A stretch of DNA of 64,000 nucleotides, from contig NZ_JAHKQD010000003.1 in assembly GCF_018860915.1 (NCBI RefSeq), forward strand, positions 1 to 64,000, given 5' to 3'. Under the pieces are notes generated by a model that was not told the origin of the DNA, made no database searches, and saw only the letters and a program-made list of their open reading frames with translations. Shown piece after piece: positions 19,413 to 39,754 of the stretch; position 1 is the stretch's first letter, and the number at the start of each line of letters is the position of its first letter. This DNA comes from Colwellia sp. C2M11 (GTDB lineage Bacteria > Pseudomonadota > Gammaproteobacteria > Enterobacterales > Alteromonadaceae). The position numbers were made by a program, and so were the translations under genes.

Positions 19413-21902
19413 CTATTTCCCTGTTAAAACAGCTTCATAAACTAATGAAATAATACTACCGTATTTTCCAGTTTCAAATGCTTTACCTTTAAAGGTGTAA
19501 TGCGTTTCATCACCTTCTACTAAACTGTGTCTAGCGTTAGTAAGCAATACAATAGCCAAATCATGTTCAGGGTCAATAACTGTCACTGTGCCTGTCCAAC
19601 CAGTATGTCCGTAAGCTGATGGACTAGCATAAGGTCCAAAGTGCCATTTTAATGCGCCATTGTTATTTCGACGCCAACCTAAACCGTAACTACCATCGGT
19701 GTCTGCGGGTTTGATAAATTGGTCTAATACGCTCTGATCAAAAACCTGCGTACTTCCATAGCCGCCTCTATTTAAAAGTGTTTGCATTAATACCGCTATA
19801 TCTGACGTTGTTGAAAAAACGCCTGCGTGCCCTGCTACACCAGAAAAAGAATGAAAAGCTTTTTCATCATGCACTTCACCTTGTAAAACATAACGACGAA
19901 CATTGTCAAAATCTACGCGACCACCGCGTGTTGTACCATGAATTTCAGTTGCCGCTATTTGTTTTTTACTTTTACCTTTAGTTAAAGGATTAAATAACGT
20001 GTTATGTAAATCAAGTGGCTGATAAATATCAAATTCACAATATTGGTCTAAACTTTTCCCTGTGATACGTTCAATTAACATTCCCAGTAACATGAAGTCA
20101 GTATCACTATAAATATGCTTAGTATTCCTACCCATTGAAAATGGTACTTTAGTTAAAATAAGCTGTTTAGTTTTATCACTATTTTGAGAATAAAAAGCTC
20201 TGCCAAGTTTATTGTTTTTATCAAAAAAACGTACTTGAGGGCCATAGCCTGCACTATGAGTGAGTAAATCTTTAACGCGTCGCGTTTCCCTACCTGAGCC
20301 ACTATAATCGGGTAAATAATATGACAGTGGTTTATTGGTATCTAAACGACCTTCACTCACTAACTTCATTAAAGCAAAGTTAGTTGCAAACATTTTAGTA
20401 TTTGAGGCAATGTCAAAAATGGTATTGGTTGTCATAGGTACAGGTGAAGCTAATAACTCGCCGCCATCACCATACTTTTGTGCATAGCCATAAGCCGTGC
20501 TTTTGATCACTTTACCATCTTTAATAACCATTAATGCTGCACCTGGAAAGCCTTGTTCGATATCCGCATTAATTTGTTTATCTACATTGATAAAGCGTTT
20601 GTCTTGTTTTTTACTATTAAATTCAAGCTCTGGAAATGGAATGATAATATTTAACGACGCACCTTCTGGGAAAATATTATCAACTTTTAACGTGTTAACA
20701 CCATTGATAGTACGGCGCTTCAAGCTATATTGATATCGTTCGCCTATCTCCATGCGTTCTCTAATATTGATTTTTTGACCATTAATATAGATATCTGCAG
20801 ATAACGCATCGTTATTATCAATGATAATTTCACCTGAGCCACGATAGCTTTTAAATGTAGTACGGTCATTAACCAGTTCTCGGGTACTTCGATCAATTTC
20901 AGGAAAACGTTGATCAACTTGGCCACGTTTTTGTGTAAGTAATACTTCAGGGGCAGCAGTTAACTCGCTCTTATATCGTTTTAATAAAGCAGTGGCTTTT
21001 TCAGGAAAATATTTTTCTAATAAGGCGAATATAGTAGCCACTGTTTTTGAGTCGGGTTGACCTGTTACTTTCCAAGGCACAAAGTGCATTTGAAATGCTG
21101 ATAAAGTATCTAGTGTTTGAGCATCTAATTCGCCCGTTTCTACCACACCATAACCGTAACTTTTTAGTGCCGCTTGAATAAGGCCAGTATTCGCTTTTTC
21201 TTGTTCGAATATTTGCCAGTATTTATCTACTGTATCGGTTTCATACCAAGCACCAATCCCCGCCTGATAAAGTTGTTGCCATGGAAATCTTGGACCGGGA
21301 TCATTTTTTCGTGTTGGGGTAATATCTGAATGACCAACAATCTGTGTAGGTGATATATCTGGGTTACGTTTAAGTATATCTTGTGAGAGTTTTATAATTA
21401 ATTCGACTTGTTTCGGGTCGAAATCGGGGAATATACAGAGTTTACTCTCGCTATTTTCTCGTATATAGGTTGTCGTTTCATCGGCAACTTGTGCTAACTT
21501 TCGGCATTGCGGTACATTAACAATTTCAATTCCAATCGATTGATCGTTTAATTCAGTACGGCCTTGCCAATAACTTTTACCAGCATGCCAGGCACGTTGT
21601 GATTCAGGCACTAATTGGTAAATATTTAATTCATTTTCAGTATAGGTTTCATCATTTGTTTGTGGAATAAGGTAATGTGAGCTTACGTGACCTTTTTCTA
21701 CTAACGCCTGCACTGATTTTTCATAATCAATGGCAGTGTAGTGCATAACTAAAAACTTTATTCGTTCACTGTAATTATGTGATGGCAGTGATTTTATTGG
21801 TAATGATGAGCAGCTAGTCAATAACAAGACACACGCAAGTAGTTGTCCTACTAAAACGCACTTGGTGTTTTTACTATTAAAAGAAAAGAGTTTTTTTTTC
21901 AT
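19413..21902 (-). CDS. Lipoprotein fusing a zinc MurNAc-L-Ala amidase, a PG-binding domain and an AmiE/YfeW-like serine hydrolase
   Basis: The 829-residue product has a lipoprotein signal with the lipobox LLTSC (Cys 31). Residues about 45-215 are an Amidase_2 (AmpD/AmiD-type) domain: FLVMHYTAIDY, SSHYLIPQ, QRAWHAGKSYW, SIGIEIVN and the zinc motif GHSDITPTRKNDPGP. About 240-300 is a peptidoglycan-binding helical domain. From about 450 to the end is a serine beta-lactamase fold with SNTK as the SxxK nucleophile, YSDTDFMLLGMLIE, GEVHDEKAFHSFSGVAGHAG and HTGWTGTV. The last blocks resemble YfeW (E. coli murQP operon) and AmiE (Bacillus ybb operon). Both catalytic domains target MurNAc-peptide linkages in relatives. 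It lies 150 bases after the TonB receptor. Confidence 0.92.
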   Translation of the reverse strand: MKKKLFSFNSKNTKCVLVGQLLACVLLLTSCSSLPIKSLPSHNYSERIKFLVMHYTAIDYEKSVQALVEKGHVSSHYLIPQTNDETYTENELNIYQLVPESQRAWHAGKSYWQGRTELNDQSIGIEIVNVPQCRKLAQVADETTTYIRENSESKLCIFPDFDPKQVELIIKLSQDILKRNPDISPTQIVGHSDITPTRKNDPGPRFPWQQLYQAGIGAWYETDTVDKYWQIFEQEKANTGLIQAALKSYGYGVVETGELDAQTLDTLSAFQMHFVPWKVTGQPDSKTVATIFALLEKYFPEKATALLKRYKSELTAAPEVLLTQKRGQVDQRFPEIDRSTRELVNDRTTFKSYRGSGEIIIDNNDALSADIYINGQKINIRERMEIGERYQYSLKRRTINGVNTLKVDNIFPEGASLNIIIPFPELEFNSKKQDKRFINVDKQINADIEQGFPGAALMVIKDGKVIKSTAYGYAQKYGDGGELLASPVPMTTNTIFDIASNTKMFATNFALMKLVSEGRLDTNKPLSYYLPDYSGSGRETRRVKDLLTHSAGYGPQVRFFDKNNKLGRAFYSQNSDKTKQLILTKVPFSMGRNTKHIYSDTDFMLLGMLIERITGKSLDQYCEFDIYQPLDLHNTLFNPLTKGKSKKQIAATEIHGTTRGGRVDFDNVRRYVLQGEVHDEKAFHSFSGVAGHAGVFSTTSDIAVLMQTLLNRGGYGSTQVFDQSVLDQFIKPADTDGSYGLGWRRNNNGALKWHFGPYASPSAYGHTGWTGTVTVIDPEHDLAIVLLTNARHSLVEGDETHYTFKGKAFETGKYGSIISLVYEAVLTGK

Positions 21903-21975
21903 AATACTTGCCTATTCACTGCTGAGATTTCTGTTTTTGTAAAATCATAAAATAATAATCAAAAAGTAATAAGAA

Positions 21976-22001
21976 AAATCCCCATCTAATGACGGGGATT
22001 T
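21976..22001 (-). terminator. Intrinsic terminator of the TonB receptor gene
   Basis: On the minus strand an 8-base perfect stem AAATCCCC/GGGGATTT with a 10-base loop runs into TTTTTCTTATT. It lies between the TonB-dependent receptor and the amidase lipoprotein. It may cause partial termination so that less amidase than receptor is made. Confidence 0.85.
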
Positions 22002-22051: not shown

Positions 22052-24982
22052 TTAAAAGCTAATTTTAGCTGATAATTGTAGACGACGTGGATTTATTAGA
22101 CTACGTGCTTCACCAAACGTGGTATTTGATGCATACGGGTCGTAATCATAACCTGTTTGATTATCAAACACGTTAAATAGGTCTGCTTTAAATTCAAGCA
22201 AGAAATCATCATAAATAGTAAAGTTTTGGCTATAGTTTAAATCCATTTGCCAATGACTACTTTCACGACGGCTACCCGCAGTTTCAGCATAGCGTATTGT
22301 TGAGCTGCTAAAGCCGTATGCAGCGCCATCCCATTTCTCCCATACATCACCTGATTGGTAGACAAAGTATGCACCGATATTAGCTTCCCAATCCGTTGTG
22401 TAATAACCATAAGCTTTAAACACATGTGGTTTATCACCATTTAATGTACCGTATTTACCATCCCAAACTTGACGACCTGCGCCATCAGCAAGGTTTGATG
22501 AACCAATAAATAAGTTAGCATCGCTATCGGCACCAGTAACATCTTGATCATAATTACCATAATAATGACTCCACACATAAGAGGCATTAAAGTATGTTCT
22601 ATCACCGATATATTCAGCTTCTAAACTCACTTCCCAATACTTAGTGAAGGCATCATCCAGTTCAGCAATAACGTATGATGAACCACCTACTTCGGCGCGC
22701 ATTGCGTCTAAGTTTTCGATATAAAGTCCTTTTTCAGCAATATGTGCTGGCACACCACCAAATGGACTTTGGTAATCACCTAACAGACGATCTGTGTTTG
22801 CTGTATCTTCCCAGAAATGATCACCTTTACGATGACGTACATGGCCACGTAAATATAGGTTATTAGACATTGATTTAGTTGCACCAATGGTAAATTCATC
22901 AATACTACGAGGTGTCATATCATCTTGGAAAAACTTACCAGAAGAGCCTGCACGTGCTTCAGATTCAATGTAATCACCATTTTCATCAAAATCAACATCT
23001 AATGCAGCACGCGTATTTCGTGCCCACGAAGCGGCACGCGCTAAAGAAGTTGCTTCAGGATTATATTTTGCGTAATTAATAAATATAGACGCATCCTCTT
23101 CATAATTCCAAGTAGCTCCTAAACGCGGCTGAATCATATCTTTAAAGTCAACGGTATACATTTCATATTTTTCACCAGGTGCGAGTTCATACCCTGACAC
23201 ATTTGATGAATTTTTTCTAAGACCTTGACCATATAATACGTCTTTGCTGATTAATACACCAACTTCGAAAATAAAATCACGGTACTCTATTGAATCATTA
23301 ATTTCAAAGTTAAAGCTTTCACTAGATGATTCAATTACTGGTACGCTAGCACCCGAAGCATCTTGTAAGCTCATTTGTTCGGTAATAGTACGATAATAAA
23401 TTGGCGTACCATCAGTTGCTGTTTCTTGACCACCAATATATTGCAGAGAGCCCCAACCATTTGAAAAACGGCTAATTTCTTCAGTACCTTCAGCCCATTT
23501 AAAGCCGAAATGAAGTGTGTGGTATGCAGGACCCCATTCAAATTCATGCTCTAAAGATAGCTCTAAACTATCACGGTAGAAATTTTGTTCATTAATTGTA
23601 GAAGCAGCGCCAATAGAGCCGCCACCCGTTAGAACACCTGCCTCATCAGTATAACCATATTGGTTAATTAATGCCTGAGCGCCGGCACTATCAAAATCGG
23701 CATTATCAGCTTGCAAGTTTGGTACTGAAAATAAACCAAGGTTATCTAAATTATTTAAATCTAAAGAGTCACCTAAAGACGGGGTAACGCCTGATAATAA
23801 TCTATCTGGGCTACCAGCAGTTTCAAGGGTAAATTCACTGTACTGGAAATTAAAGGTTGTCATATCATTAATAATATATGAACCTTCAAACGTTAAAATA
23901 TCTTGATCCGCTTGTGAGCCTTCAGAAGTACTATCAGCACTAAATGCTTCTATTGACTCACCCGTCAGGGTTTTATCAGAGGTACGGTAACTAAAGTTTA
24001 ATAATAAATCATCTACTGGTGCATAAGTTAATTTACCAAAATATTCTTTACGTTCACTGCTGTAATCTTTTGTTTCACCGTAAGCGGTTTCTTTGTTTAC
24101 GCGATCTTCTTCTGGTTGATAAAATGAACCATAGAAAAATAGTTGATCTTTAATGATAGGACCACTTACGCTACCCGTTAACCAACTTTTATTTGTATCG
24201 AATGAAGTACCATCAGCATCATCTTTGTCAGCAACAAAGTTTTTATCTTGAATTTTGTACTCTAAACTACCATGAAATTCATTAGTACCTGATTTTGAAA
24301 TAGTATCAATTGAAAAACCACCAGAGCGGTTAAAGCCTATTGCTTTTGCTCCACCACGGTCAACAGTAACACTTTGTACATCATGCGTAGACGGCTCAGA
24401 AGCTAAAGTACCAAACATAGGTAACGATACATCAACACCATCAAAACCATACTTATTATCACGACCAGAGCCACCTGCAGATGGGCCCAATACTTCATTC
24501 TCAGAATATTGAACACCTGGAATTAGTTTCATTAAATCACGATAGTTAGTACCTGTTGGAATGCCTTCAACAACATCAGCACCAATAGAGTTAGTTAATG
24601 AAGAGTTACCTTCACGCACTATTGAAGAACCTGTAACCGTAATAACTTCAATTTTATTATCAACCGGTTCAAGTGCTAAATTTACTCTTGTTGATTGATC
24701 TAAGAATACTTCAACATTCATTCTACGTGTTGTGCCATCAGCAGAAACAAAGGTAAGTTCATAATTCCCAGGAATTAACGCTGGTAAATTGTAACTACCA
24801 TCAGCGTTTGTTACCACACTACGTGGTTTTGGCATATTCTCACTTGAAGCGGTTACCTTAATACCACCAATAGCAAGGCCTGAGCCTTCAGCAGTTACAT
24901 TCCCTTTAATGCTAGCAGACTGTGCGAATGTAGATACACCCAGTCCCATTGCAATGATAAGAGCTATTTTTTTTAATTTCAT
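22052..24982 (-). CDS. TonB-dependent receptor with carboxypeptidase-regulatory-like N-domain (Oar type)
   Basis: The 976-residue product has a signal peptide (about 1-23, IALIIAMGLGVSTFAQSA). Residues about 25-105 are a CarboxypepD_reg-like beta-sandwich (GNVTAEGSGLAIGGIKVTAS, NADGSYNLPALIPGNYEL). A plug near 110-240 (EVITVTGSSIVREG, DLMKLIPGVQYSENE) is followed by a beta-barrel ending in Phe (LQLSAKISF). This design is common for receptors that import oligosaccharides or peptides. I chose ATG 24982, which has GGAGAAG eight bases upstream, over an in-frame TTG at 24997. It is divergent from a MurR/RpiR regulator and leads the amidase gene, so imported murein fragments are the likely substrate. 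Confidence 0.93.
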   Translation of the reverse strand: MKLKKIALIIAMGLGVSTFAQSASIKGNVTAEGSGLAIGGIKVTASSENMPKPRSVVTNADGSYNLPALIPGNYELTFVSADGTTRRMNVEVFLDQSTRVNLALEPVDNKIEVITVTGSSIVREGNSSLTNSIGADVVEGIPTGTNYRDLMKLIPGVQYSENEVLGPSAGGSGRDNKYGFDGVDVSLPMFGTLASEPSTHDVQSVTVDRGGAKAIGFNRSGGFSIDTISKSGTNEFHGSLEYKIQDKNFVADKDDADGTSFDTNKSWLTGSVSGPIIKDQLFFYGSFYQPEEDRVNKETAYGETKDYSSERKEYFGKLTYAPVDDLLLNFSYRTSDKTLTGESIEAFSADSTSEGSQADQDILTFEGSYIINDMTTFNFQYSEFTLETAGSPDRLLSGVTPSLGDSLDLNNLDNLGLFSVPNLQADNADFDSAGAQALINQYGYTDEAGVLTGGGSIGAASTINEQNFYRDSLELSLEHEFEWGPAYHTLHFGFKWAEGTEEISRFSNGWGSLQYIGGQETATDGTPIYYRTITEQMSLQDASGASVPVIESSSESFNFEINDSIEYRDFIFEVGVLISKDVLYGQGLRKNSSNVSGYELAPGEKYEMYTVDFKDMIQPRLGATWNYEEDASIFINYAKYNPEATSLARAASWARNTRAALDVDFDENGDYIESEARAGSSGKFFQDDMTPRSIDEFTIGATKSMSNNLYLRGHVRHRKGDHFWEDTANTDRLLGDYQSPFGGVPAHIAEKGLYIENLDAMRAEVGGSSYVIAELDDAFTKYWEVSLEAEYIGDRTYFNASYVWSHYYGNYDQDVTGADSDANLFIGSSNLADGAGRQVWDGKYGTLNGDKPHVFKAYGYYTTDWEANIGAYFVYQSGDVWEKWDGAAYGFSSSTIRYAETAGSRRESSHWQMDLNYSQNFTIYDDFLLEFKADLFNVFDNQTGYDYDPYASNTTFGEARSLINPRRLQLSAKISF

Positions 24983-25310
24983 GTTTAACTTCTCCAACTT
25001 AATTATTATAAGAATTAAATACGCGCTGTGCTTACATTTTAATACAGGTATTTCGTTTTAAAATCCGTAACCTTTTTAAATGTAGAATTTTTATTCAGTG
25101 TTATTAACTTATCACAATAGTAATAAAAGTAAATATTTTATTACTATATATTAAAAATAAACAAATATATTATTATTAATATGTCTAAATATAATTTTTC
25201 AATTTTATTTTCAGGTGTTTTTCTGTCTTATATAATTTTTTACTAGTAATTCTTACTTATTAATTAAATAATAATATAAGTTTAAAAATAATTTATTACT
25301 GTAGGTAACA
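24983..25310. other. Divergent control region between the TonB receptor and murR
   Basis: This very AT-rich region holds the promoters of both divergent genes. The most regular structure is the perfect 12-base inverted repeat at 25117-25147. A shorter palindrome TTACTAGTAA at 25240-25249 shares the TAGTAA half-element. The ribosome-binding site of murR is GTAGGT just before 25311. No small gene was seen. Confidence 0.5.
25117..25147. promoter_or_regulatory. Candidate MurR/RpiR operator, perfect 12-base inverted repeat
   Basis: ATAGTAATAAAA (25117-25128) and TTTTATTACTAT (25136-25147) are exact reverse complements around a 7-base spacer. They lie in the divergent region between the TonB receptor and the RpiR-family regulator. 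RpiR-family repressors bind inverted repeats in front of their target genes. The ligand and the protein-site pairing are inference from location and symmetry. Confidence 0.55.
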
Positions 25311-26165
25311 ATGTCAGCACTTCTTAAAATTAAAGCTATTCAAAAGTCTCTTTCAGTAAGTGAATTAAAACTTGCCAACTTTGTATTAAAATCATCCAAT
25401 GCAATCAGAGATTTATCATCTCAAGAGCTAGCCAATGTGATTGGAATAAGTCAATCTAGTGTGGTTAAATTTACCCAAAAACTCGGTTATAAAGGCTATC
25501 CAGCTTTTAAAATGGCTGTTATTGATGCTCTAAATAGTGAAGCAAGTAGTGCCCCAACCTTACATGGGGAAATCACCTTAGATTCTACATTAACTCAAAT
25601 TGCGGATATATTACTTAACAGTAAAATGGCTGTGCTTTCTGAAACCAAAGCACTTAATGAACAAAGTGCTTTTGAAGAAGCAGTAAAGTTAATCACTTCT
25701 GCTAAGCGTATTTTAATCTGTGGCTTGGGCGGCTCAGCTTTGGTCGGTAAAGATTTCTCATACAAATTACAAAAGCTAGGTTTACCGGCCTGCGCAGAGC
25801 TGGACGGTCATGCACAATTAGCTTATGTATCAACGTTTAAAAAAAATGACTTAGTCTTTGCCATTAGTGAATCAGGCCAAACAAGAGAAATTAAAGCAGT
25901 TACCGCTCAGGCAAAAGCGAATAAAAGCTCAGTAATATCTTTAACCAAGTATGGCTCTACACCTGTTTCAGATAATGCTGATGTGAAACTCTATTCTATT
26001 GCCGAACAAGAGTCTGTGCGCTTATCGTCGATTATCGCCAGAACATCACAAGAATTTATTATTGATATCTTGTTTATTGCGTTAACGCAAGCCTCTAGCC
26101 AAGGCAGAAAACTATTGGAAAAAAGTAACCGTGTGGTTAAAGACTTCCAACAAGCTTATGATTAA
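25311..26165 (+). CDS. murR: MurR/RpiR-family transcriptional regulator
   Basis: The 284-residue product has an N-terminal RpiR helix-turn-helix (residues 1-77, with SSQELANVIGISQSSVVKFT). A C-terminal SIS sugar-phosphate-binding domain (about 125-255) carries ILICGLGGSALVGKDFSYKL and LVFAISESGQTREIKAV. In E. coli, MurR represses murQP and responds to MurNAc-6-P. Here the gene divides the TonB receptor-amidase unit from the murQ-containing operon, which supports MurNAc-6-P as the signal. The other common ligand in this family is a different hexose phosphate, so the symbol is by context. Confidence 0.85.
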   Translation: MSALLKIKAIQKSLSVSELKLANFVLKSSNAIRDLSSQELANVIGISQSSVVKFTQKLGYKGYPAFKMAVIDALNSEASSAPTLHGEITLDSTLTQIADILLNSKMAVLSETKALNEQSAFEEAVKLITSAKRILICGLGGSALVGKDFSYKLQKLGLPACAELDGHAQLAYVSTFKKNDLVFAISESGQTREIKAVTAQAKANKSSVISLTKYGSTPVSDNADVKLYSIAEQESVRLSSIIARTSQEFIIDILFIALTQASSQGRKLLEKSNRVVKDFQQAYD

Positions 26166-26221: not shown

Positions 26222-27403
26222 CTAATTAGGATAAAGCAAATATTTAGCGCGTAACTGTTTAAAATCTGATAATCCCTGTTGCCAACCTGCTTCTATTTGC
26301 TTGAGGCTAACCCCAGCTTGAATACTCTTTCTTAACTCATCAGTGCCTGCTAACTTATCCATAAAATCAGGGTACTTGAAAAACACTTTCTCGTTTGTTG
26401 CGAACACCTGATACCACTGAATAAATGGTTGAAGATCTAGCCCATTCATCGTTGAAACTCTTAAATCTTGCCCAGTGAGTAACTTATCCATCAATTTAGG
26501 ACTAAGCGCACTGCCTGGCATTGAAATAGGAGTAAAATGAAAATCACCAATAGAATATTCATTATGACCAATCACTTGAAAAGGAAACTCTGTTCCTCGC
26601 CCAATACTTACCACGGTTGATTCAAAAAAAGTAAGCGATGGATAAAGCTGAATAGATTGATCATTAGGTAAATTAGGACTCGGTTTTATTGGTAAAGAAT
26701 AAGTGCTATGTCGCGTGTAGTTTTTGACTGAAATCACATGTAAATCGAGTTCATTTTTACTTGTTAACCACCCTTGCCCACTGATCATTTTTGCTAATTC
26801 ACCTAATGTCATACCGTGTAAAACAGGTATTGGGTGCATACCAACAAATGACGAAAACTCTGCTTCCAATATTGGTCCGTTCACAAACTTTATATTAGGG
26901 TTAGGTCGATCGAAAACAATAAAGCTTTTCCCTGCTTCAGCCGCGGCTTCCATCATATAATGCATAGAGCTTAGAAAAGTGTAGAAACGGACACCAACAT
27001 CTTGAATATCAAAAATAATAACATCAAGTTGTCTGATAATATCTGGTGAAGGCTTTTTGTTTTTTCCATAAATAGAAATAACAGGGAGCTGAGTAAGTGG
27101 GTCTATATTATCTTTAACCTCAGCACCTGCATCATGATTACCTCTAAAGCCATGCTCTGGGGAAAAGATATATTTAATATCAACATCGTGACTAATTAAA
27201 AAATCAACAAGATGTTTACCTTCCACGCTAGACGTTTGATTAACCACCAAACCCACTTTTTTACCCTGTAAAAAAGGTAAATACTTAGCAGGCTGTTCAG
27301 CCCCCACAATGATAGATTTAGCATGCCCAGTGAAACTAACAATACTTATAACAACAAGACACAGGCAATATAAAAACAAGTTAAGTGTTTTCATTTTATA
27401 CAT
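26222..27403 (-). CDS. namZ: Exo-beta-N-acetylmuramidase NamZ (DUF1343, GH171)
   Basis: NamZ removes MurNAc from the non-reducing end of murein glycan chains. The 393-residue product has a signal peptide ([21 protein letters not shown]), so it acts in the periplasm. It also has DUF1343 blocks: [12 protein letters not shown] near 45, [11 protein letters not shown] near 78, [16 protein letters not shown] near 128 and FDRPNPN near 165. Later [10 protein letters not shown] and [14 protein letters not shown] are conserved. The 27403 start overlaps the murQ stop by 8 bases; a second ATG at 27394 also fits. It is the last gene of the minus-strand murein operon. In Bacillus the homologue YbbC works with NagZ and AmiE, and counterparts of both are present here. 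Confidence 0.92.
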
Positions 27404-28358
27404 TTATTTTAATAGGTTGTTCGATAGAGTCATTAACCGCTGCTCTTAAGAAACCATGTTTACTTTCTAGTAATACAGCAGCTTCTTCTATTGGTAAATC
27501 AGTTAACACTAATAAAATGGCAAGCTTTACATTGTTATTTGCCTTAGCTAAAGCAGCTGTTGCTATATGAATATCACAAGCCGTTGCTTGCATAACAATA
27601 CGGACTGCTCTAGCCTTCAGTTTCTCGTTACTTGCATGCACGTCAACCATCAAATTTTCATAACTCTTACCGGTTTTAACCATACTTGCCGTGGTGAGCA
27701 TATTCAAAATCAATTTTTGTGCTGTGCCTGATTTTAGGCGCGTAGAGCCGGTTAATGCTTCAGGACCAACCTCGGCACAAATAGCAATATCAGCCTCGGT
27801 TAGTAACTCAGATCCTGAATTACAAGAAACACCAACAGCAACAGCACCAATTTCTTTAGCATATTTCAACGCTGAAATTGTATAAGGCGTACGTCCACTA
27901 GCCGCTATGCCAACCACGACATCCTCTTTGCATAAATGACAAGACTTTAACTCTGTTATTGCAAGAATAGGATCATCTTCAGCACCTTCTACAGCTTTAT
28001 ACATAGCACTTTCGCCACCCGCTATTAATGCGATGATTTGATGTTCAGAAACACTAAACGTTGGCGGACATTCAACAGCATCAAGTACACCTAAGCGACC
28101 GCTTGTACCTGCACCAACATAAATAAGTCTTCCACCTCGGCGAAACGCAGAAACAATTTTTTCTACTGCTAAGGTTATTTCAGGAATAGCTCGATGAACA
28201 ACGTGAGCAACTTTCTGATCTTCTTTGTTTAAGGCAACTAACAAGCTTTTTGTATCGAGTAAGTCTAAATCCATGGTATCTGGATTACGACCTTCGGACG
28301 CCATTAGTTGTAGATCATCAATCAATTGAGATTGTTGACGGTTTACTTTAATTTCCAT
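27396..28358 (-). CDS. murQ: N-acetylmuramic acid 6-phosphate etherase
   Basis: MurQ splits MurNAc-6-P into GlcNAc-6-P and D-lactate in the cytoplasm. The 320-residue product has the SIS fold with the family blocks [20 protein letters not shown] near residue 80, [20 protein letters not shown] near 108, [13 protein letters not shown] near 145 and [18 protein letters not shown] near 199. The catalytic Glu of VEGAED and the conserved Glu of DAVECP are both present. Its start overlaps the upstream kinase by 11 bases and its stop overlaps the namZ start, so the three are tightly coupled. Confidence 0.97.
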
Positions 28359-30857: not shown

Positions 30858-30990
30858 ATACTTCTCACAACGCCACTTCGTTAACATTTAGGAATAAATT
30901 ATTCAAAGATTAACACAAATATATAATTAAATATAACAAAAATCTATAATTTACTATAACAAAAAGCTGATTCGAACATTAATTTGAAAC

Positions 30991-32082
30991 TTAAAGCTCA
31001 ATTAAACCATTGACAACATCTATTCCTAAACCAGGTAGTTCATTTAACTGAATTATCGACTTGTTGAAGGAAACACCGCCAGAGACAGGATCAAACTTAC
31101 CTAATGCCGGACCATCCAAATCAATTTTAGTGATAGTGTTAGATTTTGCGACGGCTAAATGTGCTGCTGCAGAAACCCCAATACTGCCTTCAAGCATGCA
31201 GCCGATCATACATTCAACTTGATAAATTTTTGCAATATCAGCAATTTTAATGGCGTTAGAAATACCACCTGTTTTCATTAATTTAATATTGATAATATCG
31301 ACTGAATGGCTGGTAATTAGATCTATTACTTGTTTAGGCGAGAATGCACTTTCATCAGCCATTATCGGGGTATGAACGCGATCTGAAATATATTTCAAAC
31401 CCGCTATATCATCAGCCCGAACAGGTTGCTCAATTAGCTCTAATTGAATCCCTATACGCTCGAAGTAGTTAGCTGCATAAACCGTTTGTTTAGCGCTCCA
31501 TCCTTGATTAACATCTAATCTTATCTGTACGTCATTACCTATAGCACTATGAATGGCTTTAACTCGCTCAATATCTTCTTTGATATCAGTACCAATTTTA
31601 ATTTTTAGTATGTCAAAGTCATCCTCTATCGCTTTAAGTGAATCACTTACCATTTTATCGATTGTATCGACACTAATAGTTATATCAGTTTTTAATCTAT
31701 TATTCCCTCCTCCTAATAATTTATAGAGAGGTGCGTTATGAAATTTACCCCAAAGATCATAGATAGCAAGTTCTACTGCAGCTTTAGCACTACTGTTATT
31801 TACTAGTGCAGATTGAATAACATCAATAATATTGTTTAAATTCTCAATCTCCATTCCTCGTAATTTAGGTGACAATACACTACTGATTGCCGCCATAATA
31901 CCGCCATGGGTGTCACCAGTAATTACAGGCGTTGCAGGAGCAGATCCATAACCTACCTGACCAACATCTGTTTCCACAATAACAACCAAGTCTTCAATAT
32001 TTTCTACCGTTCTCATAGACGTTTTAAAAGGCGTGATCAATGGCACAATTAACTTGGCGAAACGGATATTTGTAATTTTCAT
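30991..32082 (-). CDS. L-Ala-D/L-Glu epimerase (enolase superfamily)
   Basis: The 363-residue product belongs to the muconate-lactonizing subgroup of the enolase superfamily. It has the acid-base pair of dipeptide epimerases: the KxK motif in DILKIKIGTD near residue 158 and the second Lys in NIKLMKTGG near 265. The metal ligands lie in IRLDVNQGW (Asp), ELIEQPV (Glu) and MADESAFS (Asp). The enzyme turns murein-derived L-Ala-D-Glu into L-Ala-L-Glu so that ordinary dipeptidases can use it. Its upstream neighbour encodes the NlpC/P60 endopeptidase expected to release this dipeptide, as in Bacillus ykfB-ykfC. Confidence 0.92.
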   Translation of the reverse strand: MKITNIRFAKLIVPLITPFKTSMRTVENIEDLVVIVETDVGQVGYGSAPATPVITGDTHGGIMAAISSVLSPKLRGMEIENLNNIIDVIQSALVNNSSAKAAVELAIYDLWGKFHNAPLYKLLGGGNNRLKTDITISVDTIDKMVSDSLKAIEDDFDILKIKIGTDIKEDIERVKAIHSAIGNDVQIRLDVNQGWSAKQTVYAANYFERIGIQLELIEQPVRADDIAGLKYISDRVHTPIMADESAFSPKQVIDLITSHSVDIINIKLMKTGGISNAIKIADIAKIYQVECMIGCMLEGSIGVSAAAHLAVAKSNTITKIDLDGPALGKFDPVSGGVSFNKSIIQLNELPGLGIDVVNGLIEL

Positions 32083-32148: not shown

Positions 32149-33555
32149 TTAGTTAAGTCTGATCTTTTTGATGTTATAAATTGTATCAATATAACTTTTC
32201 GTTTCTGACAAATGTAACGGCAACAATGGTGTAACTGAAACGCCATTAAGTGTGCCTTTATAATATTGTTTGTCTTTAGTGTAATATGACAGTCCTTTAA
32301 CATCATGAATGATGTAAGGCTCGCCATTGTCATCACCTAAGTACATAACCACATGACCTGGAATATAAATTAAATCACCAATCTCTAACTGGCTAATAGC
32401 AGCCAATTTCTCTTGTTTACTAGATTCCGTAGTAAAATCAATATTTTTTCCATAACTAGCTTTGCCTTGTTGGCCTGAATTTCTCGGCATTAACAAACCA
32501 AATGTTTTATAAATTTCGCCAACAAACCCGGTGCAATCACGGCCATTATAGTCATGCCCCCAACCATAGCGTTCACCTAAAAACTTAAAACCTTGCTTGA
32601 TAATATTTTGTTTTGTGAACGGTAAGTAACCAATATGGGTGTCTTTACTTTTGGCTATCATTGCGGGTAAAAAATCTAATCTGCCTTCGCTCGTTCTCAC
32701 CGGTAATTGCACAATATAAGAAGCAAATGGATTTTGACCATATAAATGAGCAGTGTAGTCTTGCTTACTTATTAAAGGTAATTTAACTCCCATATCCAAT
32801 TGAATCTCAGATACTTGTGCTTTATTAGGCACAAAAGTAGTAAAAACTTTATCTCCGGTGATCATTAAGAAATTAGTGTTATGTACAAAGTCATGAACGA
32901 TTTTTTTGTCGCCTAGCGCAATATCTTCTTTTAATACCCAAGCAAGGTAGTTGTATGACTGTACGAGGTACCATTTTTTATCTTTACTTTCATGCAACAC
33001 GGCAATAGCTTCACCGGGAAATACTGCCGTTTCTTGAAACCTATCAAGGTCGGTATCCATACCATTATTAAATACTCTGTCGGTTGTCGGAAAAGTACGC
33101 AGAGAGGTACGTTTAACAACGAGTCCCCATCTAACATTATTTTGCTCAAGTACCGCCGGTATATTTACATTATCTCTGTAGTCGTTAAATTCTTTATCAG
33201 TTAACTTATGACCATCATAATAAAACCTATCACTACTTGGCACAGAGCTAATAGTATTAATATGGTGAGTTAATTGTGCTTTCGTTAACACCTTTGGTAT
33301 TGCTAATGGATCAACAACGTGTGAATTACTCTGCATCACTTGCTGGTTAAATAGATTAACGCCCTTTTTATCTATTAACACTATGTTATCACTCGCTTTA
33401 TTTTTTTCGTATAAATCAACCCAATAAGCACTATCTAACTGTGCTTCGTTTACATTAATAACATCTGATTTCCCTTCTACATAAGGAGATGCAGTAAGAG
33501 AGTAAACATTCATTTGTATAAATAATACGAATGAAACAAAAATTTTAACTTTCAT
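32149..33555 (-). CDS. Exported NlpC/P60 gamma-D-glutamyl-L-diamino acid endopeptidase, YkfC-like
   Basis: The 468-residue product has a signal peptide (IFVSFVLFIQMNVYSLTA). SH3b-like domains follow, at about 140-210 (VVKRTSLRTFPTTDRVF and WYLVQSYNYLAWV) and 225-300. The C-terminal NlpC/P60 domain has catalytic Cys in YNGRDCTGFVGE near 340, His in GHVVMYLGDD near 411 and the third polar position in IIHDVKGL. YkfC cuts the D-Glu/diaminopimelate bond of murein peptides with a free N-terminal L-Ala. It is encoded just before the matching epimerase. Its export indicates that peptides are trimmed before import. Confidence 0.91.
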   Translation of the reverse strand: MKVKIFVSFVLFIQMNVYSLTASPYVEGKSDVINVNEAQLDSAYWVDLYEKNKASDNIVLIDKKGVNLFNQQVMQSNSHVVDPLAIPKVLTKAQLTHHINTISSVPSSDRFYYDGHKLTDKEFNDYRDNVNIPAVLEQNNVRWGLVVKRTSLRTFPTTDRVFNNGMDTDLDRFQETAVFPGEAIAVLHESKDKKWYLVQSYNYLAWVLKEDIALGDKKIVHDFVHNTNFLMITGDKVFTTFVPNKAQVSEIQLDMGVKLPLISKQDYTAHLYGQNPFASYIVQLPVRTSEGRLDFLPAMIAKSKDTHIGYLPFTKQNIIKQGFKFLGERYGWGHDYNGRDCTGFVGEIYKTFGLLMPRNSGQQGKASYGKNIDFTTESSKQEKLAAISQLEIGDLIYIPGHVVMYLGDDNGEPYIIHDVKGLSYYTKDKQYYKGTLNGVSVTPLLPLHLSETKSYIDTIYNIKKIRLN

Positions 33556-33612: not shown

Positions 33613-35511
33613 TTATATCGTTATAGGTAAATGCCCAGTCGCGCTTATTTGCCCACTGATTATTTGAGTTAAACCATTAAAAACAGCACCTGTGTATTCA
33701 TCTGATCCACTAACTTGATACGCATTACCATCAAAGCAAGCTAATACCCAATCAGCGGTATTAGTAAACTGCTCTAATTGATAAGGCGCTTTAAGTGAAA
33801 TATAAATAGTCGCTAATTGCTTCTGTTTTGCGTAAGCTAAAACATCTAATGCTTTATCCGCGTTACTTTTGTCACTTGATTTTTTAAGTGTTGTCGCCAG
33901 AGCTAAATCGCCAGCTTGCCCTAATTCAACAGCCGTCTTTTGACTATCATTTGCCACAATAACAAGCTCACTATTATCTAGCTGCTCAAGCATTGCAGTA
34001 GAATTACTCTCATCTAAACTTGAGCTAGTAATTGACCATGACGCTCCACCAATATTTAACGCGTATTGATTAAGTGCTAACGCCATTGCCTCTGATTGTG
34101 ATTTTTTAGGGAACACAAGATGAATATTGTTAATCGTTGACATGCGTTTAACTAATGCTGGATTAGGTTTTATTTCAACAATTGAATGCTGCACGAGTGC
34201 TTGTTCTAACGCTCTATGCTTTTCTATACCAAGCGTTTCTTTAGCTTGCGTCGTTAATTCACTAACATCTGTACTAACAGTGGCAGTTACCGCAGGTGCT
34301 AATTTTTGCTTTAAGGCAGTAATTCTTTCAACAGAGCTGTCAATATCATCAAGTGATAATTCTTCTGATAATACTTTATCAACTAATAGTTCAATAAATG
34401 CTTTAAAACGGGGTATATCTGAAGGTTGTCTAATACTCATTGGCATCATGGCAATATCAGCGCCAGCATTAAAAGTGTGAAGTACCGCCTCTTCTTCAGA
34501 AAAGAACTCTGCAATACCCGCCATATCTAACGCATCAGTAATAATTATGCCATCAAAGCCCATTTCATCTCGTAATAACGACGTTAATATTTTTTTCGAT
34601 AACGTGGCGGGCTTTATCATTGATTCGCCAAATTTATTTACCACCAAACTATCATCAAGCGCTGGATATTGAATATGCGCGGTCATGATCATTTCAACAT
34701 TGCTACGATCAATAGCTTGTTGAAATGGGAGTAAGTCAACCGATCTAACAACGTCATAAGGGTGCTCGACTCGCGGTAAACCAGTATGACTATCGGTATT
34801 GGTATCACCATGACCAGGAAAGTGTTTTAACGTGCCAATAACACCTTTAGACTGCAATCCTTCAAGCATCGCAATACCTAGCTCAGCAACAATCTCTGGT
34901 GTTTCACCAAAAGATCGTACATTGATAACGGGGTTATTTGGATTAATATTTACATCAACATCTGGAGCATGGTTAACATTAACGCCCAAAGTAGCTAATT
35001 CAGCACCAATAACTTCGCCAACTTTTCTTGCGTAATAATCACCATGGTTCTCATAGGTGGCACCAATTGCCATATTGCCGGTAAATGAAGTAGCCATAGT
35101 GCGAGGTAAACGAACAACTCGTCCACCTTCTTGATCAATTGAAATAAGTAATGGCTCTTCGCTTGCTGATGCTAACGCTGCTTGTTGCAAATCTTGAGTT
35201 AAATGAATAGTTTGCTCAATACCGGTAAAGTTTTCAGCAAATAAAATGACCGAACCTAATGATGTATCGGTAATTAACTCAGCTAAGTCCTTAGATAATG
35301 TTGTTACCGGCGTCACACATTGATTATCACCGGTAAAAACAACATGTTCTGTTAGCTCTGGACAATAATAGCGAATATCTAGCATTAATTTTTGCGCTAT
35401 TTTTTGTGCTATTTCTGTACGACCGTCTTGATGTTTCCCCAATAAAGAGAGCGCTATAACTATCATTACAGCAAAGCTCAATATAATTTTTATACTAATA
35501 CGACTCAACAT
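33613..35511 (-). CDS. nagZ: Exported GH3 beta-N-acetylglucosaminidase, NagZ-like
   Basis: NagZ removes GlcNAc from GlcNAc-MurNAc units. The 632-residue product has an N-terminal signal or anchor (IIILSFAVMIVIAL region, residues 8-24) and a GH3 TIM barrel. The barrel has SIDQEGGRVVRLPRTMA near 125 and LKHFPGHGDTNTDSHTGLP near 229; the His/Asp of this loop form the NagZ acid-base pair. FDGIIITDALDM near 318 holds the nucleophile Asp. Like Bacillus NagZ, and unlike the 340-residue cytoplasmic E. coli enzyme, it is exported and has a second C-terminal domain (about 400-632). It lies 57 bases upstream of the YkfC-like gene. Confidence 0.92.
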   Translation of the reverse strand: MLSRISIKIILSFAVMIVIALSLLGKHQDGRTEIAQKIAQKLMLDIRYYCPELTEHVVFTGDNQCVTPVTTLSKDLAELITDTSLGSVILFAENFTGIEQTIHLTQDLQQAALASASEEPLLISIDQEGGRVVRLPRTMATSFTGNMAIGATYENHGDYYARKVGEVIGAELATLGVNVNHAPDVDVNINPNNPVINVRSFGETPEIVAELGIAMLEGLQSKGVIGTLKHFPGHGDTNTDSHTGLPRVEHPYDVVRSVDLLPFQQAIDRSNVEMIMTAHIQYPALDDSLVVNKFGESMIKPATLSKKILTSLLRDEMGFDGIIITDALDMAGIAEFFSEEEAVLHTFNAGADIAMMPMSIRQPSDIPRFKAFIELLVDKVLSEELSLDDIDSSVERITALKQKLAPAVTATVSTDVSELTTQAKETLGIEKHRALEQALVQHSIVEIKPNPALVKRMSTINNIHLVFPKKSQSEAMALALNQYALNIGGASWSITSSSLDESNSTAMLEQLDNSELVIVANDSQKTAVELGQAGDLALATTLKKSSDKSNADKALDVLAYAKQKQLATIYISLKAPYQLEQFTNTADWVLACFDGNAYQVSGSDEYTGAVFNGLTQIISGQISATGHLPITI

Positions 35512-35571: not shown

Positions 35572-37149
35572 TTATTTTGAAATACGTGTGAAATTTAGAT
35601 CAATGTAATCAAAACTTGCATCAACATCATCCGAGTATCTATCCATTTTTAGCCCTACTACATTATTGTTTCCATCAATAATAAATTGTGCAAATGCATC
35701 TGCTTCTAGGCTTCTATCGTCATACCAAACAATAAATTCGTTATTTTCATTCTCTATTAATTGCCCGTGCATACGAATGGATTTCAATGATTCAAAATAC
35801 AGTTGTTTATTTTTCATGGAAATTTTTACCTGACCAAACCAAGGGTCTTGATAAATACCTAAATAAGACGTCAAAGGTAAATTAACGCTTTTTCTATCAG
35901 GCATCACTTTGAGGTTTACTGTTGAATTTTTGGCTTGAATTCGGTTTTGTCGCTTTTGCTGCCTTTCCAATTGAATTGCTAGCCAATCTCTTTGTTCTAC
36001 ATCCATAAATGATTGCACAATACTGCTCATGATCGCACTTCTGGCATATGATGAGTTTTGGTTTATCAAGACAATAACACCTAAATCAAGCTCAGGTATC
36101 ATCATAATATAAGATAAGTTTCCTGATAGGCTACCAGTATGAGATACACGCTTATAGCCATGCATATCGGCTAAGCGCCAGCCTAAAGCATAAGACTTAA
36201 AGTTGGTGTTATCGTATTTTTTGTCATTATCAGAAACAGATAAAATAGTATGTGGCTGCCACATTGCTTTACTTTGTTGTTCACTAAATATTTTAACGCC
36301 TGCTGGTGATGTACCTTGGTTTAATTGTGTTTCAACCCAAGTAAGTAAATCATTAACGCTACACTTAATCCCTCCTGCCGCAGCCATAACACTATCTTTA
36401 TGGTAGGTTTGATTCCGTTTAATAATGGTAGGTTTATTATTGATTAAGCCATGTGGTTGAGCAATGTTCGTCATTTGTTTAGCTGGTACTGCACCCGCAA
36501 AACAGCGGCTCATCTGTAGAGGCATAAAAATATTTTTTTCGACAAAATTCTCCCAAGACATACCTGTAACATTAGCGACAACTTCTCCAGCAACAATATA
36601 AAGCAAATTATCATAAGCATATTCACTACGAAAACCTGATGCTGGTTTGAGGAATTTTAAGTTATTAATAATCTCATCACGGCTAAAACCAGCCGGCTCA
36701 GGCCACAACATTAAATCGCCAGCAAAACGAGCTAAACCGCTGCGATGTGTTAACAAATCAGCTATGGTAAACTCTTTTGTTACCCAATCATCATATAAGG
36801 CAAAGTTAGGAATAATATCAACAACTTTACTTTCCCAAGTTATTTTTTCCTGATCAACTAATATAGCTAACGCAGCAGCAGTAAACGCTTTCGTGGTTGA
36901 TGCTATTTTAAAGAGCGTTTTTGAATCAATTGCTAGCGCTTTATTAACATCTTGGCGTCCATAACCTTTATTTAATAATACTTTGCCATCCTTTATGACT
37001 CCTACTGCCGCACCTGGTACATTAAAAGTCGTTAATACGTCATTGACCAAGGTATCAACGTCTTCAGAATTAAAGGCCTTTTTTTGGGCATATACTGGTT
37101 GGCTAACCAATACACAAATAGAAATGAATATAATTAAATAATTTTTCAT
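35572..37149 (-). CDS. Exported serine beta-lactamase-fold hydrolase (class C/PBP4* type)
   Basis: The 525-residue product has a signal peptide (LIIFISICVLVSQPVYAQ). A serine hydrolase domain (about 25-385) carries FKIASTTKAFT (SxxK), YAYDNLLYIVAGEV (Tyr/Asn motif) and RVSHTGSLSG (the K/H-T-G position). A C-terminal lipocalin-like domain (about 410-525; YLGIYQDPWFG, LKMDRYSDD) resembles the tail of D-amino-acid peptidases and esterases in this family. The role could be a D,D-peptidase, a muramyl amidase or a D-aminopeptidase. Membership of the murein operon argues against drug resistance as its main job. Confidence 0.9.
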   Translation of the reverse strand: MKNYLIIFISICVLVSQPVYAQKKAFNSEDVDTLVNDVLTTFNVPGAAVGVIKDGKVLLNKGYGRQDVNKALAIDSKTLFKIASTTKAFTAAALAILVDQEKITWESKVVDIIPNFALYDDWVTKEFTIADLLTHRSGLARFAGDLMLWPEPAGFSRDEIINNLKFLKPASGFRSEYAYDNLLYIVAGEVVANVTGMSWENFVEKNIFMPLQMSRCFAGAVPAKQMTNIAQPHGLINNKPTIIKRNQTYHKDSVMAAAGGIKCSVNDLLTWVETQLNQGTSPAGVKIFSEQQSKAMWQPHTILSVSDNDKKYDNTNFKSYALGWRLADMHGYKRVSHTGSLSGNLSYIMMIPELDLGVIVLINQNSSYARSAIMSSIVQSFMDVEQRDWLAIQLERQQKRQNRIQAKNSTVNLKVMPDRKSVNLPLTSYLGIYQDPWFGQVKISMKNKQLYFESLKSIRMHGQLIENENNEFIVWYDDRSLEADAFAQFIIDGNNNVVGLKMDRYSDDVDASFDYIDLNFTRISK

Positions 37150-37251
37150 CGTTAAAAACGTCTCGAGTTAAATAATAAAACAGAATGTTGTCTAAAAAAG
37201 CAATACTTCAAATGAAGCATTACTGATAGTAAACATCATAAAATAATGTTT

Positions 37252-38652
37252 TTACAAAAAGGCGATACCATAAAGTGCATAAAGAATAATAGTTAATGCT
37301 CCACCAAATAACGCATAAGGTAATTGCGTTTTAACGTGCTCTAATAATTCACAACCGGATGCAATAGCAGAAACCGCGGTAGTATCGGAAATAGGTGAAC
37401 AATGATCTCCAAAAACACCCCCCCCTAAAATAGCCGCAATAATGAAAGAAGGTGGTAAGCCCATAGTTTGAATAAGCGGAACGCCAATTGGGATCAAGAT
37501 GGCAAAAGTTCCCCAAGATGTTCCTGTAGAGAAGGCAATGACAGCACCTGCGATAAACAACATAGGGGCAATCATAAATAATGGTAAAGTGTCACCAATA
37601 ATTTGTGCCACATAAACACCGGTACCTAATACTTTTAAGCTAGCGCCTAATGTTAATGATAATAAAACAATGGTCACCAATGGCAATAACTCACTCATAC
37701 CATCAAAACCAATTTTCACTAATTGGTGATGAGTAAATTTCTTAGTAGACAACATCATAATATAAGCTACTAGGCAGGCACTAACGGTTGCATACAAAAC
37801 TGATTTTGAACCGCTGCCATTAGCTAAGGTGCCATCACCGGTCAAAAACATAAACATGATCATACCTAACACCATGGTTAATAAAGGTACAAACATAAAT
37901 CTTGCTTTTGTTGGTTTAAACTCAGGTGTTGGTGCCGCATGGTTGTTTGATTCGTTGTCAATTTGACCTTCCCCTATCGATTTTGAACGAGCTAGAGGAC
38001 CGTGTAAATTTCCAGTGTAAGCCGTATACCAAACCATCATAAGTGCAATAATAGGGTAGAAGTTAAGCGCAATAGTTCCCCACATAATTTCTGCCGCACT
38101 TTGTTCAAATTCATAGTTACTTAACAGGCCCAAAACAAAGGCTCCCCAGCCATTAAGAAGGACTAAAATACAAATAGGTGCTGCACTACTGTCAATAATA
38201 TAAGCAAGTGTTGCACGACTCATTTTATAGCGGTCAAACAAACCTCTAGAAACAATGCCCGCCGTTAATACCGAAAGATTACTTTCAATAAAAATTGCCA
38301 TACCGGTGAAATTTGCCATAAACGCAGCTTGTCGCCTATTTTTCCCTAAACCTTTAGAGATAACATATTCAACCATTGCTGTTACGCCGCCAGAGTGACG
38401 CATAAATGCAAGCACAGCACCAATAATTAAACTAAAAAGAAGAATTCGCGTATTTCCTGCGGAGCCAAATACTGAGACAATACGCTCAAAAGCACCAACA
38501 ACACCATCAAACAACATTGTCGAGCCTGTTTTAGCGAGTAATACTTCAGAAGTAATAATCGCTAATAGCAAAGCAAGTATTACTTCTTTCTTCCATAAGA
38601 CCACTAAAACAGCAACTAACGGCGGTAACAATGAGTACCATTCCATATTCAA
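37252..38652 (-). CDS. NhaC-family sodium/proton (or organic ion) antiporter
   Basis: The 466-residue product has about 11-12 membrane segments and the blocks typical of NhaC: FTGMAIFIESNLSVLTAG near 115, LAYIIDSSAAPICILVLLNGWG near 150, FSTGTSWGTFAILIPIGVPL near 380 and GGGVFGDHCSPISDTTAVSA near 415. NhaC proteins exchange sodium for protons, and some relatives exchange organic ions such as malate/lactate. Its position in the murein operon, upstream of a sodium-coupled symporter, suggests either sodium recycling or export of a catabolic end product such as D-lactate from MurQ. Both are speculation. Confidence 0.9.
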   Translation of the reverse strand: MNMEWYSLLPPLVAVLVVLWKKEVILALLLAIITSEVLLAKTGSTMLFDGVVGAFERIVSVFGSAGNTRILLFSLIIGAVLAFMRHSGGVTAMVEYVISKGLGKNRRQAAFMANFTGMAIFIESNLSVLTAGIVSRGLFDRYKMSRATLAYIIDSSAAPICILVLLNGWGAFVLGLLSNYEFEQSAAEIMWGTIALNFYPIIALMMVWYTAYTGNLHGPLARSKSIGEGQIDNESNNHAAPTPEFKPTKARFMFVPLLTMVLGMIMFMFLTGDGTLANGSGSKSVLYATVSACLVAYIMMLSTKKFTHHQLVKIGFDGMSELLPLVTIVLLSLTLGASLKVLGTGVYVAQIIGDTLPLFMIAPMLFIAGAVIAFSTGTSWGTFAILIPIGVPLIQTMGLPPSFIIAAILGGGVFGDHCSPISDTTAVSAIASGCELLEHVKTQLPYALFGGALTIILYALYGIAFL

Positions 38653-38752
38653 CCCTTTATATAAATATAACTAATAAGACATACTGACAAATAAGAATAG
38701 ATTATTCAAGCTTTAACAGTAAATGGTAATTTTTTATTAATAATAACAACGA

Positions 38753-39754
38753 TTATTTGTTATCAAAAATTTCTTGGTAAGCATACACACCTTGGCTTCC
38801 TCCAGTATGTAAAAAAAGAATATTTTCTTTAGCACTAAAAACACCTTTTCGGCATAAATCAATCATGCCAGACATCGCTTTGCCCGTATAAACAGGATCT
38901 AGTATTAAACCTTCATGTTGTGCACAAAGTCTAACAGCCTCAATCATTTCATCTGTTGGAATACCATAACCTTGGCCATAATAATCTCCATTAGCAAACA
39001 CTCGACCTTTGGCGAGGCTAGGGTCTAAACCAATTAAGGTTAAAGTTTTTTCTAATAATTCCGTCACTATCTGAATTTGTTCATCCGCTGGGCGACTAAC
39101 ACATATACCGAGTACCGGAATATCAACATCAGCTAAGATTAACCCTGCTAAAAGCCCTGCTTGTGTACCAGCACTGCCTGTAGCAAGTACAATATGATCA
39201 AGCGCGATGTCTTGATCTTTAATTTGGTCAATAACTTCTTGAGCACACTGAATGTAACCTAAGCTACCTATTTCGTTTGAGCCCCCCATCGGAATCAAAT
39301 AAGGCTGTTTACCACTATTTTGTAAGCTTACCATCAGCTCATTTGCATAATCAGCGCAATTCTCTTCTGCTGATATACGATGAATAGTCGCACCCAATAA
39401 ATTATTGAGTAAAACATTGCCATTTTGGTAATAGTCAGATTTTGGCGTACCTGATACATCTTCTAATACTAATTCACACTTTAAGCCAAACTTTGCAGCG
39501 ACAGCAGCTGTTTGGCGCGCATGGTTCGATTGAATTCCGCCAACAGTGACTAAGGTATCAGCATTACCGGCTAAAGCTGCAGCAAGCAAATACTCTAACT
39601 TGCGCGTTTTATTACCCCCGCCAGCCAAGCCCGTACAATCATCACGTTTTATCAAGAGATTGTGGTTTAATATTTTCGATAAATGTGGCATCACCTCCAG
39701 CGGTGTAGGGCTATGAGAAATAAGAACACGAGGGATTGCATTGAATTGTGGCAT
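38753..39754 (-). CDS. PLP-dependent D-cysteine desulfhydrase / ACC-deaminase family enzyme
   Basis: The 333-residue product is a fold-type II PLP enzyme with LIKRDDCTGLAGGGNKTRKLEYLL near residue 34 (PLP lysine in GGNKTRK), TVGGIQSNHARQTAAVAAKFGL near 70, the phosphate loop LATGSAGTQAGLL near 192 and a C-terminal FLHTGGSQGVYAY. Relatives are DcyD (D-cysteine to pyruvate, ammonia and sulfide), ACC deaminase and CuyA (L-cysteate sulfo-lyase). It is the first gene of the minus-strand murein operon, about 100 bases before the antiporter. A D-amino-acid substrate would fit that context, but the specificity cannot be read from sequence alone. Confidence 0.88.
   Translation of the reverse strand: MPQFNAIPRVLISHSPTPLEVMPHLSKILNHNLLIKRDDCTGLAGGGNKTRKLEYLLAAALAGNADTLVTVGGIQSNHARQTAAVAAKFGLKCELVLEDVSGTPKSDYYQNGNVLLNNLLGATIHRISAEENCADYANELMVSLQNSGKQPYLIPMGGSNEIGSLGYIQCAQEVIDQIKDQDIALDHIVLATGSAGTQAGLLAGLILADVDIPVLGICVSRPADEQIQIVTELLEKTLTLIGLDPSLAKGRVFANGDYYGQGYGIPTDEMIEAVRLCAQHEGLILDPVYTGKAMSGMIDLCRKGVFSAKENILFLHTGGSQGVYAYQEIFDNK

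Follow-up and report, generated by a model that had tools for sequence, protein, structure and literature searches.

In a 64,000-nucleotide (nt) stretch of DNA from Colwellia sp. C2M11 (contig NZ_JAHKQD010000003.1, positions 1 to 64,000; hereafter the window), thirteen genes at 19413-39754 had been predicted to form one catabolic system for peptidoglycan (murein) that works without a phosphotransferase system (PTS). Open reading frames (ORFs) were found for all thirteen, and Pfam and NCBIfam placed them in the families named by that original prediction. The sugar genes, all on the minus strand, encode the exo-N-acetylmuramidase NamZ (26222-27403; PF07075, 259.9 bits), the N-acetylmuramic acid (MurNAc) 6-phosphate etherase MurQ (27396-28358; TIGR00274, 384.5 bits against a cut-off of 302), a BadF-type sugar kinase, putatively MurK (28348-29262; PF01869), and an SSS sodium symporter with a presumed MurT-like role (29265-30887; PF00474, TIGR00813). 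A MurR-like regulator of the RpiR family is encoded on the plus strand (25311-26165; HTH_6 and SIS domains). The palindrome GAATA-N3-TATTC, a candidate operator, occurs exactly as GAATAAATTATTC (30892-30904) before the symporter gene and as GAATAGATTATTC (38695-38707) before the gene of an NhaC-family carrier (37252-38652, minus strand; PF03553). The minus-strand genes include a run of ten, from a pyridoxal-phosphate (PLP) enzyme of the PALP family (39754) to NamZ (26222), in which no gap exceeds 103 nt. Three of its junctions measure -8, -11 and 2 nt, so that NamZ, MurQ, kinase and symporter genes overlap or almost touch; the symporter, kinase and MurQ genes (gaps of 2 and -11 nt) have an operon-like arrangement. 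Judged from the operator position, the true start of the symporter is probably at 30857.

The other genes of the run, also on the minus strand, encode an L-Ala-D/L-Glu epimerase of the YkfB type (MR/MLE family; 30991-32082; best PDB match 1jpm, E 1.4e-97), a protein with SH3 and NlpC/P60 domains of the gamma-D-Glu-diamino acid endopeptidase kind (32149-33555; best PDB match 3m1u, E 2.2e-25), a GH3 beta-N-acetylglucosaminidase of the YbbD/NagZ type (33613-35511; best PDB match B. subtilis YbbD/NagZ, E 1.1e-93), a second serine hydrolase with a beta-lactamase fold and a DUF3471 domain by Pfam (35572-37149), and the PALP enzyme itself, which resembles D-cysteate lyase/D-cysteine desulfhydrase (38753-39754; 445.1 bits against a cut-off of 450). 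The best solved relatives of the GH3 enzyme and the epimerase fit murein. Further along the same strand lie the genes of a lipoprotein (19413-21902), in which Pfam and NCBIfam recognised an N-acetylmuramoyl-L-alanine amidase (Amidase_2), a peptidoglycan-binding part and a PBP4B/YfeW-type serine hydrolase (499.1 bits against a cut-off of 385), and of an outer-membrane receptor (22052-24997; PF25183 and CarboxypepD_reg). PBP4B is encoded by yfeW, the last gene of the E. coli murQ-murP operon. The predicted TonB receptor was thus present, as an Oar-like TonB-type barrel in which no plug domain matched at E 0.001. Since the receptor is Oar-like and lies near NamZ in nine of 35 loci, and no SusD, and hence no SusC/SusD pair, was found among the window genes scanned, the term polysaccharide-utilisation-type locus, which had also been proposed, applies only loosely. 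NamZ, the NlpC/P60 protein and the second serine hydrolase carry what look by eye like signal peptides, the hydrophobic N-terminus of the GH3 enzyme may be a signal or an anchor, and the lipoprotein appears to have a lipobox. The suggested export of both glycosidases, as in Bacillus, is therefore putative, with the enzymes present and their N-termini read by eye. Directly downstream of the locus we also observed an M23 endopeptidase gene paired with a bactofilin gene (17009-18605); by label, just one of 35 loci, that of the window, has the M23 gene.

Conservation of gene order was examined around NamZ, for which 394 genomes of the order were surveyed, with a family subset of 35 genomes. NamZ was found in 36 genomes of the order, including that of the window; within the family, 22 of the 35 genomes listed had it. 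The NamZ of the locus is the only match in the window's genome. The window and 34 relatives gave 35 loci, each with up to 20 kb on either side of NamZ (several contigs were shorter). By tblastn, MurQ lay near NamZ in 29 loci, the symporter in 18 and the kinase (at least 34% identity) in 12, all of which also have the symporter. By ORF labels, which undercounted MurQ (26 loci), the GH3 enzyme was found in 27 loci, MurR in 22, NhaC in 17, the lipoprotein in 14 (nine full length, five shorter), alanine racemase in 10, the second serine hydrolase in seven and an M14 protein in six, while the epimerase, the NlpC/P60 protein, the receptor and a FAD/FeS D-lactate-dehydrogenase-type protein each occurred in nine. 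One to two members of each accessory cluster (alanine racemase, D-lactate-dehydrogenase-type, M14) were scanned, two per cluster by Pfam for the first two of these; from known chemistry, alanine racemase would use up D-Ala, and D-lactate set free by MurQ would be removed by its oxidation. PALP was found in two loci only. A recurrent protein without a Pfam match (L036:10349-11647; cluster in five loci) shows an SxxK-like motif by eye and is possibly another serine hydrolase. NhaC stays near NamZ in G244, G302 and G366 (L033, L051-L052, L046-L047), where MurQ and SSS genes were not found nearby, and from these loci its cargo may be a product that derives from NamZ action or from peptides.

One relative, G321, holds the whole block. 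We considered recent transfer between G321 and the window's genome (G000), and rejected it: their PGK proteins are 77% identical, compared with 79% for the two genomes of the same genus, so that ordinary descent is enough for G321. In G072 and G194, PGK is as close as in G321, yet the loci are more diverged.

A PTS EIIBC-type, MurP-like gene adjoins MurQ in six of the 35 loci (G169, G198, G217, G221, G258 and G378; three of the six genes were scanned and the remainder assigned by clustering), and it never occurs together with the symporter found in 18 loci. The window's genome itself had no PTS_EIIC match at E 0.001, as the predicted lack of a PTS transporter would have it. We read the symporter and kinase as standing in for the MurP-like gene of otherwise similar loci. 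That the kinase feeds MurQ is indicated most strongly by their fusion into a single ORF of 615-626 amino acids (aa) in three genera (G052, G072 and G147, at L076:17935-19815, L042:726-2573 and L069:776-2629); in the G072 fusion both domains were found by Pfam. These fusions tie the kinase to MurNAc 6-phosphate. Its residues were compared with those binding MurNAc in Tannerella forsythia MurK, namely T94, D95, S133-P134-L135 and F137 (PMC10465942). In a manual alignment anchored at the catalytic D and at the GDEGSG motif, the T-D pair and F are kept and G-G-W replaces S-P-L. GGWGF is present in all 12 locus kinases, and G-G-W is predicted to leave room for the lactyl group; it is also common to the aligned GlcNAc-type (N-acetylglucosamine) and MurNAc/GlcNAc kinases. 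From this pattern we expect a dual MurNAc/GlcNAc kinase.

The operator came to light when the regions ahead of locus genes were searched for inverted repeats in 11 genomes. Across the 1.219 Mb of the 35 loci, exact GAATA-N3-TATTC occurred 18 times, compared with 0-5 occurrences for other spacers and 0-7 for other arm orders. Seventeen of the exact sites are intergenic, and 16, from 14 genomes, stand upstream of locus genes. It also precedes MurR in six genomes outside the discovery set (G217, G331, G384, G198, G221 and G169), and in the four of PTS type (G217, G198, G221 and G169) MurQ lies on the other side of the site. A 19-nt matrix built from 16 sites gave 59 matches of at least 12 bits, 38 of them in locus promoters (200 column-permuted matrices: mean 1.48, largest 11), counts whose weight is lessened by being partly circular, as training and testing overlap at the locus sites. 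In at least one genome each, an operator-like site stands ahead of the genes for NhaC, the GH3 enzyme, the receptor, the lipoprotein, the M14 protein, alanine racemase and a LysA2-like diaminopimelate decarboxylase; the NhaC sites were found in the window, G321, G292 and G147, and the receptor sites, of 15.8-16.8 bits, in G147 and G292. In 80 further loci from named genomes, 66 of which had none of MurQ, MurK, SSS and MurP within tblastn reach and one of which (L098) duplicates G339, 27 matches were obtained, five of them upstream of locus genes (L098, L099, L100, L116 and L173; L100 is the locus of Rheinheimera pacifica). From its position, the operator is the predicted target of the MurR-like protein.

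Beyond the thirteen genes, three contiguous genes on the plus strand (52778-56014) were missed by the original prediction and seem to belong with the locus. They encode an S66 LD-carboxypeptidase of the MccF/YkfA kind (52778-53842; PF02016/PF17676), closest in PDB to Lmo1638/MccF-type entries and with a twin-arginine-like N-terminus by eye; an orphan family, g273 (53851-54672); and a second diaminopimelate decarboxylase, LysA2 (54743-56014; TIGR01048, 474.1 bits against a cut-off of 297.9), preceded by an operator-like site with one mismatch (54702-54714). S66 lies 13 kb from PALP, separated from the locus by two very large genes (39948-52416). In G321 the S66 gene (83% identity) adjoins PALP and is followed by g273 (67%), with LysA2 (75%) 2.3 kb further on. 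Around NamZ, S66 was labelled in four of the 35 loci, a LysA2-like gene in three and g273 in two. As to the large genes themselves, one encodes an OmpA-domain protein of 1364 aa and the other a protein of 2793 aa with 11 SdrD_B and 9 DUF11 stretches; they are not at the corresponding place in G321.

The window contains both of the LysA genes that exceed the cut-off genome-wide (6080-7423 and 54743-56014), and they are 62.6% identical. With G000, G321 and G331 excluded from training, the sites before the LysA2-like genes scored 15.3, 11.1 and 16.6 bits, respectively, and 3, 20 and 1 of 1000 permuted motifs did as well; no operator site was found before the first gene, LysA1 (0.1 bits). The LysA2-like gene of G331 is as close to LysA1 as to either LysA2 gene (54.7-55.9% identity), which leaves its orthology unsettled. 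g273 had no Pfam, NCBIfam or significant PDB match. It was found in five of 394 genomes of the order (one a fragment) and in nine of 369 genomes of the class (that of the window included; one weak and with a stop). Its neighbour is S66 in three cases, the window, G321 and G331, and in G440 the two are fused. An Amidase_2 gene lies beside it in G263 and G331, and in G496 (L179) a gene of the YkuD_2 L,D-transpeptidase type; no S66, amidase or transpeptidase-type neighbour was noticed in G434, G680 and G574 (L181-L183). We propose it as a candidate murein-peptide hydrolase. Its invariant residues are H40, E43, R70, D84-P-N-R87, H143-N-N, D223-G-S, N239 and E241. An assignment to the M14 zinc carboxypeptidases was tried and rejected (hhalign probability 0.7%; of 11 members, none matched M14 at E 1), and the likeness to metallocarboxypeptidases consists of an HxxE...NR...H...E motif seen by eye.

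Taken together, these features point to a regulated catabolic locus for murein fragments, a reading of the sequence to which we give a probability of about 0.8. That the thirteen genes form one catabolic system stood for the core: its clustering is beyond chance because it recurs in relatives and an operator is shared. Membership of PALP is doubtful. An arrangement in which only symporter, MurK, MurQ, NamZ and regulator make up a system, with the peptide enzymes, receptor, NhaC, PALP and S66-g273-LysA2 as chance neighbours, would account for the low counts of the epimerase, NlpC/P60 and receptor genes and the still lower ones of S66, LysA2-like, PALP and g273 genes, but the operator-like sites before so many of the accessory genes and the synteny with G321 make this quite improbable. 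It is also unlikely, though less so, that the locus is chiefly a recycling system for murein that the cell itself turns over, and not one for feeding on foreign murein, with the single MurQ serving both AnmK and the locus. The window's genome has one MurQ over the cut-off, the locus copy, and one AnmK encoded elsewhere, so that this MurQ should indeed also serve ordinary recycling; however, the AmpG/AnmK route needs no exported NamZ, GH3 enzyme or amidase, no receptor and no second diaminopimelate decarboxylase, and NamZ is distributed patchily in the family, unlike a housekeeping path.

We give very little credence to an amino-sugar locus with a GlcNAc kinase and a symporter that carries GlcNAc. 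The kinase (PDB relatives 1zc6 and 8zo3) does have a probable GlcNAc kinase as its best PDB match, and a membrane protein, presumably NagX-like, lies nearby in four of 35 loci, but the NagK model scored 120 bits against a cut-off of 370, the kinase is fused to MurQ in three genera, three further, weaker BadF-type matches lie elsewhere in the genome, and NamZ, epimerase and NlpC/P60 protein fit chitin or GlcNAc poorly.

Several observations weigh against a regulated murein locus as we read it. The kinase may be dual or mainly for GlcNAc, given its best PDB relative and the absence of the S-P-L of strict T. forsythia MurK, and the same kinase was not found nearby in six of the 18 symporter loci (in two of these, G263 and G383, a different member of that kinase cluster is close by). 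Gene order is kept for the core, but the locus is patchy even within the genus: NamZ is missing from G357, and G194 retains little besides it. In G321, moreover, g273 and LysA2 are separated by three unrelated ORFs that were not found in the cassette of the window. The regulator scored below the NCBIfam MurR cut-offs (PRK15482, 161.5 of 408; PRK11557, 235.2 of 355). Exact sites were found in only 14 of the 35 loci and four of the six PTS-type loci, with none in G258 and G378; in the window the receptor has only a weak site, of 9.9 bits and 289 nt away, and upstream of PALP no site reached 9 bits. Genome-wide, the exact motif occurred 10 times and a control pattern 11 times, and one-mismatch sites numbered seven in the window, compared with 4.4 expected. 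A genome-wide regulon was rejected on these exact counts: two of the ten sites are those of the locus, and the other eight lie in or beside ORFs with no murein link by eye. An operator shared with E. coli MurR was likewise rejected, the murR-murQ gap giving only a two-mismatch match at chance level.

If the locus does serve murein catabolism, the Oar-like receptor would bring fragments into the periplasm, where the lipoprotein, with its amidase and PBP4B parts, and the other serine hydrolase would strip the peptides, and NamZ and the GH3 enzyme would release MurNAc and GlcNAc; for these enzymes the families were found and the activities are those expected of them. The NlpC/P60 and S66 enzymes, perhaps with g273, would cut the peptides to L-Ala-D-Glu, D-Ala and meso-diaminopimelate. 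MurNAc would enter through the sodium symporter. The BadF kinase would phosphorylate it to MurNAc 6-phosphate and MurQ would split this into GlcNAc 6-phosphate and D-lactate, two steps that the fusion and the operon support. The epimerase would yield L-Ala-L-Glu, and LysA2 would convert diaminopimelate to lysine. Comparison predicts that the MurR-like regulator binds the GAATA-N3-TATTC sites ahead of three genes, those of the symporter, the NhaC carrier and LysA2. More tentatively, and with the odds somewhat against it, a single RpiR regulator and its operator may define one regulon for complete murein breakdown in a Gram-negative bacterium, in which a sodium symporter displaced the PTS under the same operator for the sugars, and the stem peptide is led to lysine by a dedicated diaminopimelate decarboxylase and by g273 as a new peptidase family working with S66.

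Murein makes up a large share of dead bacterial biomass, and to our knowledge its use as food by Gram-negative bacteria is poorly mapped. The locus offers a concrete gene set and a searchable operator for murein use, the exchange of PTS and sodium symporter in otherwise similar loci points to two uptake routes, a specific use is suggested for the spare diaminopimelate decarboxylase, and an unannotated family becomes a candidate murein-peptide hydrolase.

Compared with known systems, the locus shares with E. coli murR and murQ-murP-yfeW an RpiR regulator, MurQ and a PBP4B protein; E. coli differs in its PTS transporter, in the absence of NamZ and peptide enzymes from the stretch shown and in an operator that is not shared. 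The B. subtilis ybb locus (murQ, murR, murP, amiE, nagZ and namZ) has in common with it NamZ, the GH3 enzyme NagZ, MurQ, the RpiR regulator and a serine hydrolase, whereas Colwellia, a Gram-negative with an outer-membrane receptor, has symporter and kinase in place of the PTS protein MurP. On the peptide side the comparison is with Bacillus ykfABC: S66, epimerase and NlpC/P60 enzymes are all in the window, but in two blocks and joined to sugar catabolism and LysA2. The predicted combination of ybb and ykf logic thus held, with S66 as a part that had gone unnoticed. For T. forsythia, we take ybbC to be namZ. According to the published accounts, its operon Tanf_08345-08385 comprises ampG, ybbC, murT, murK and murQ on one transcript (PMC5790795, PMC5388701, PMC7670621). 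Because these genes are transcribed together, the PTS-free core is already known, and the combination of an SSS symporter, a BadF-type kinase, MurQ and YbbC/NamZ without a PTS in a Gram-negative is not new (PMC5790795, PMC5388701). As far as those accounts go, AmpG is present there and was not among the window genes scanned, the Colwellia kinase deviates from strict MurK residues, and only the Colwellia locus has the GH3, NlpC/P60, epimerase, S66, LysA2 and amidase/PBP4B lipoprotein genes, the TonB-type receptor, and the RpiR regulator with its operator. In the open-access literature, a coverage that leaves out most subscription journals, we found no earlier account of such a core joined to peptide catabolism, LysA2, a TonB-type receptor and this operator. 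Most parts are known from other bacteria; what is new is their combination, the operator and the extra diaminopimelate decarboxylase.

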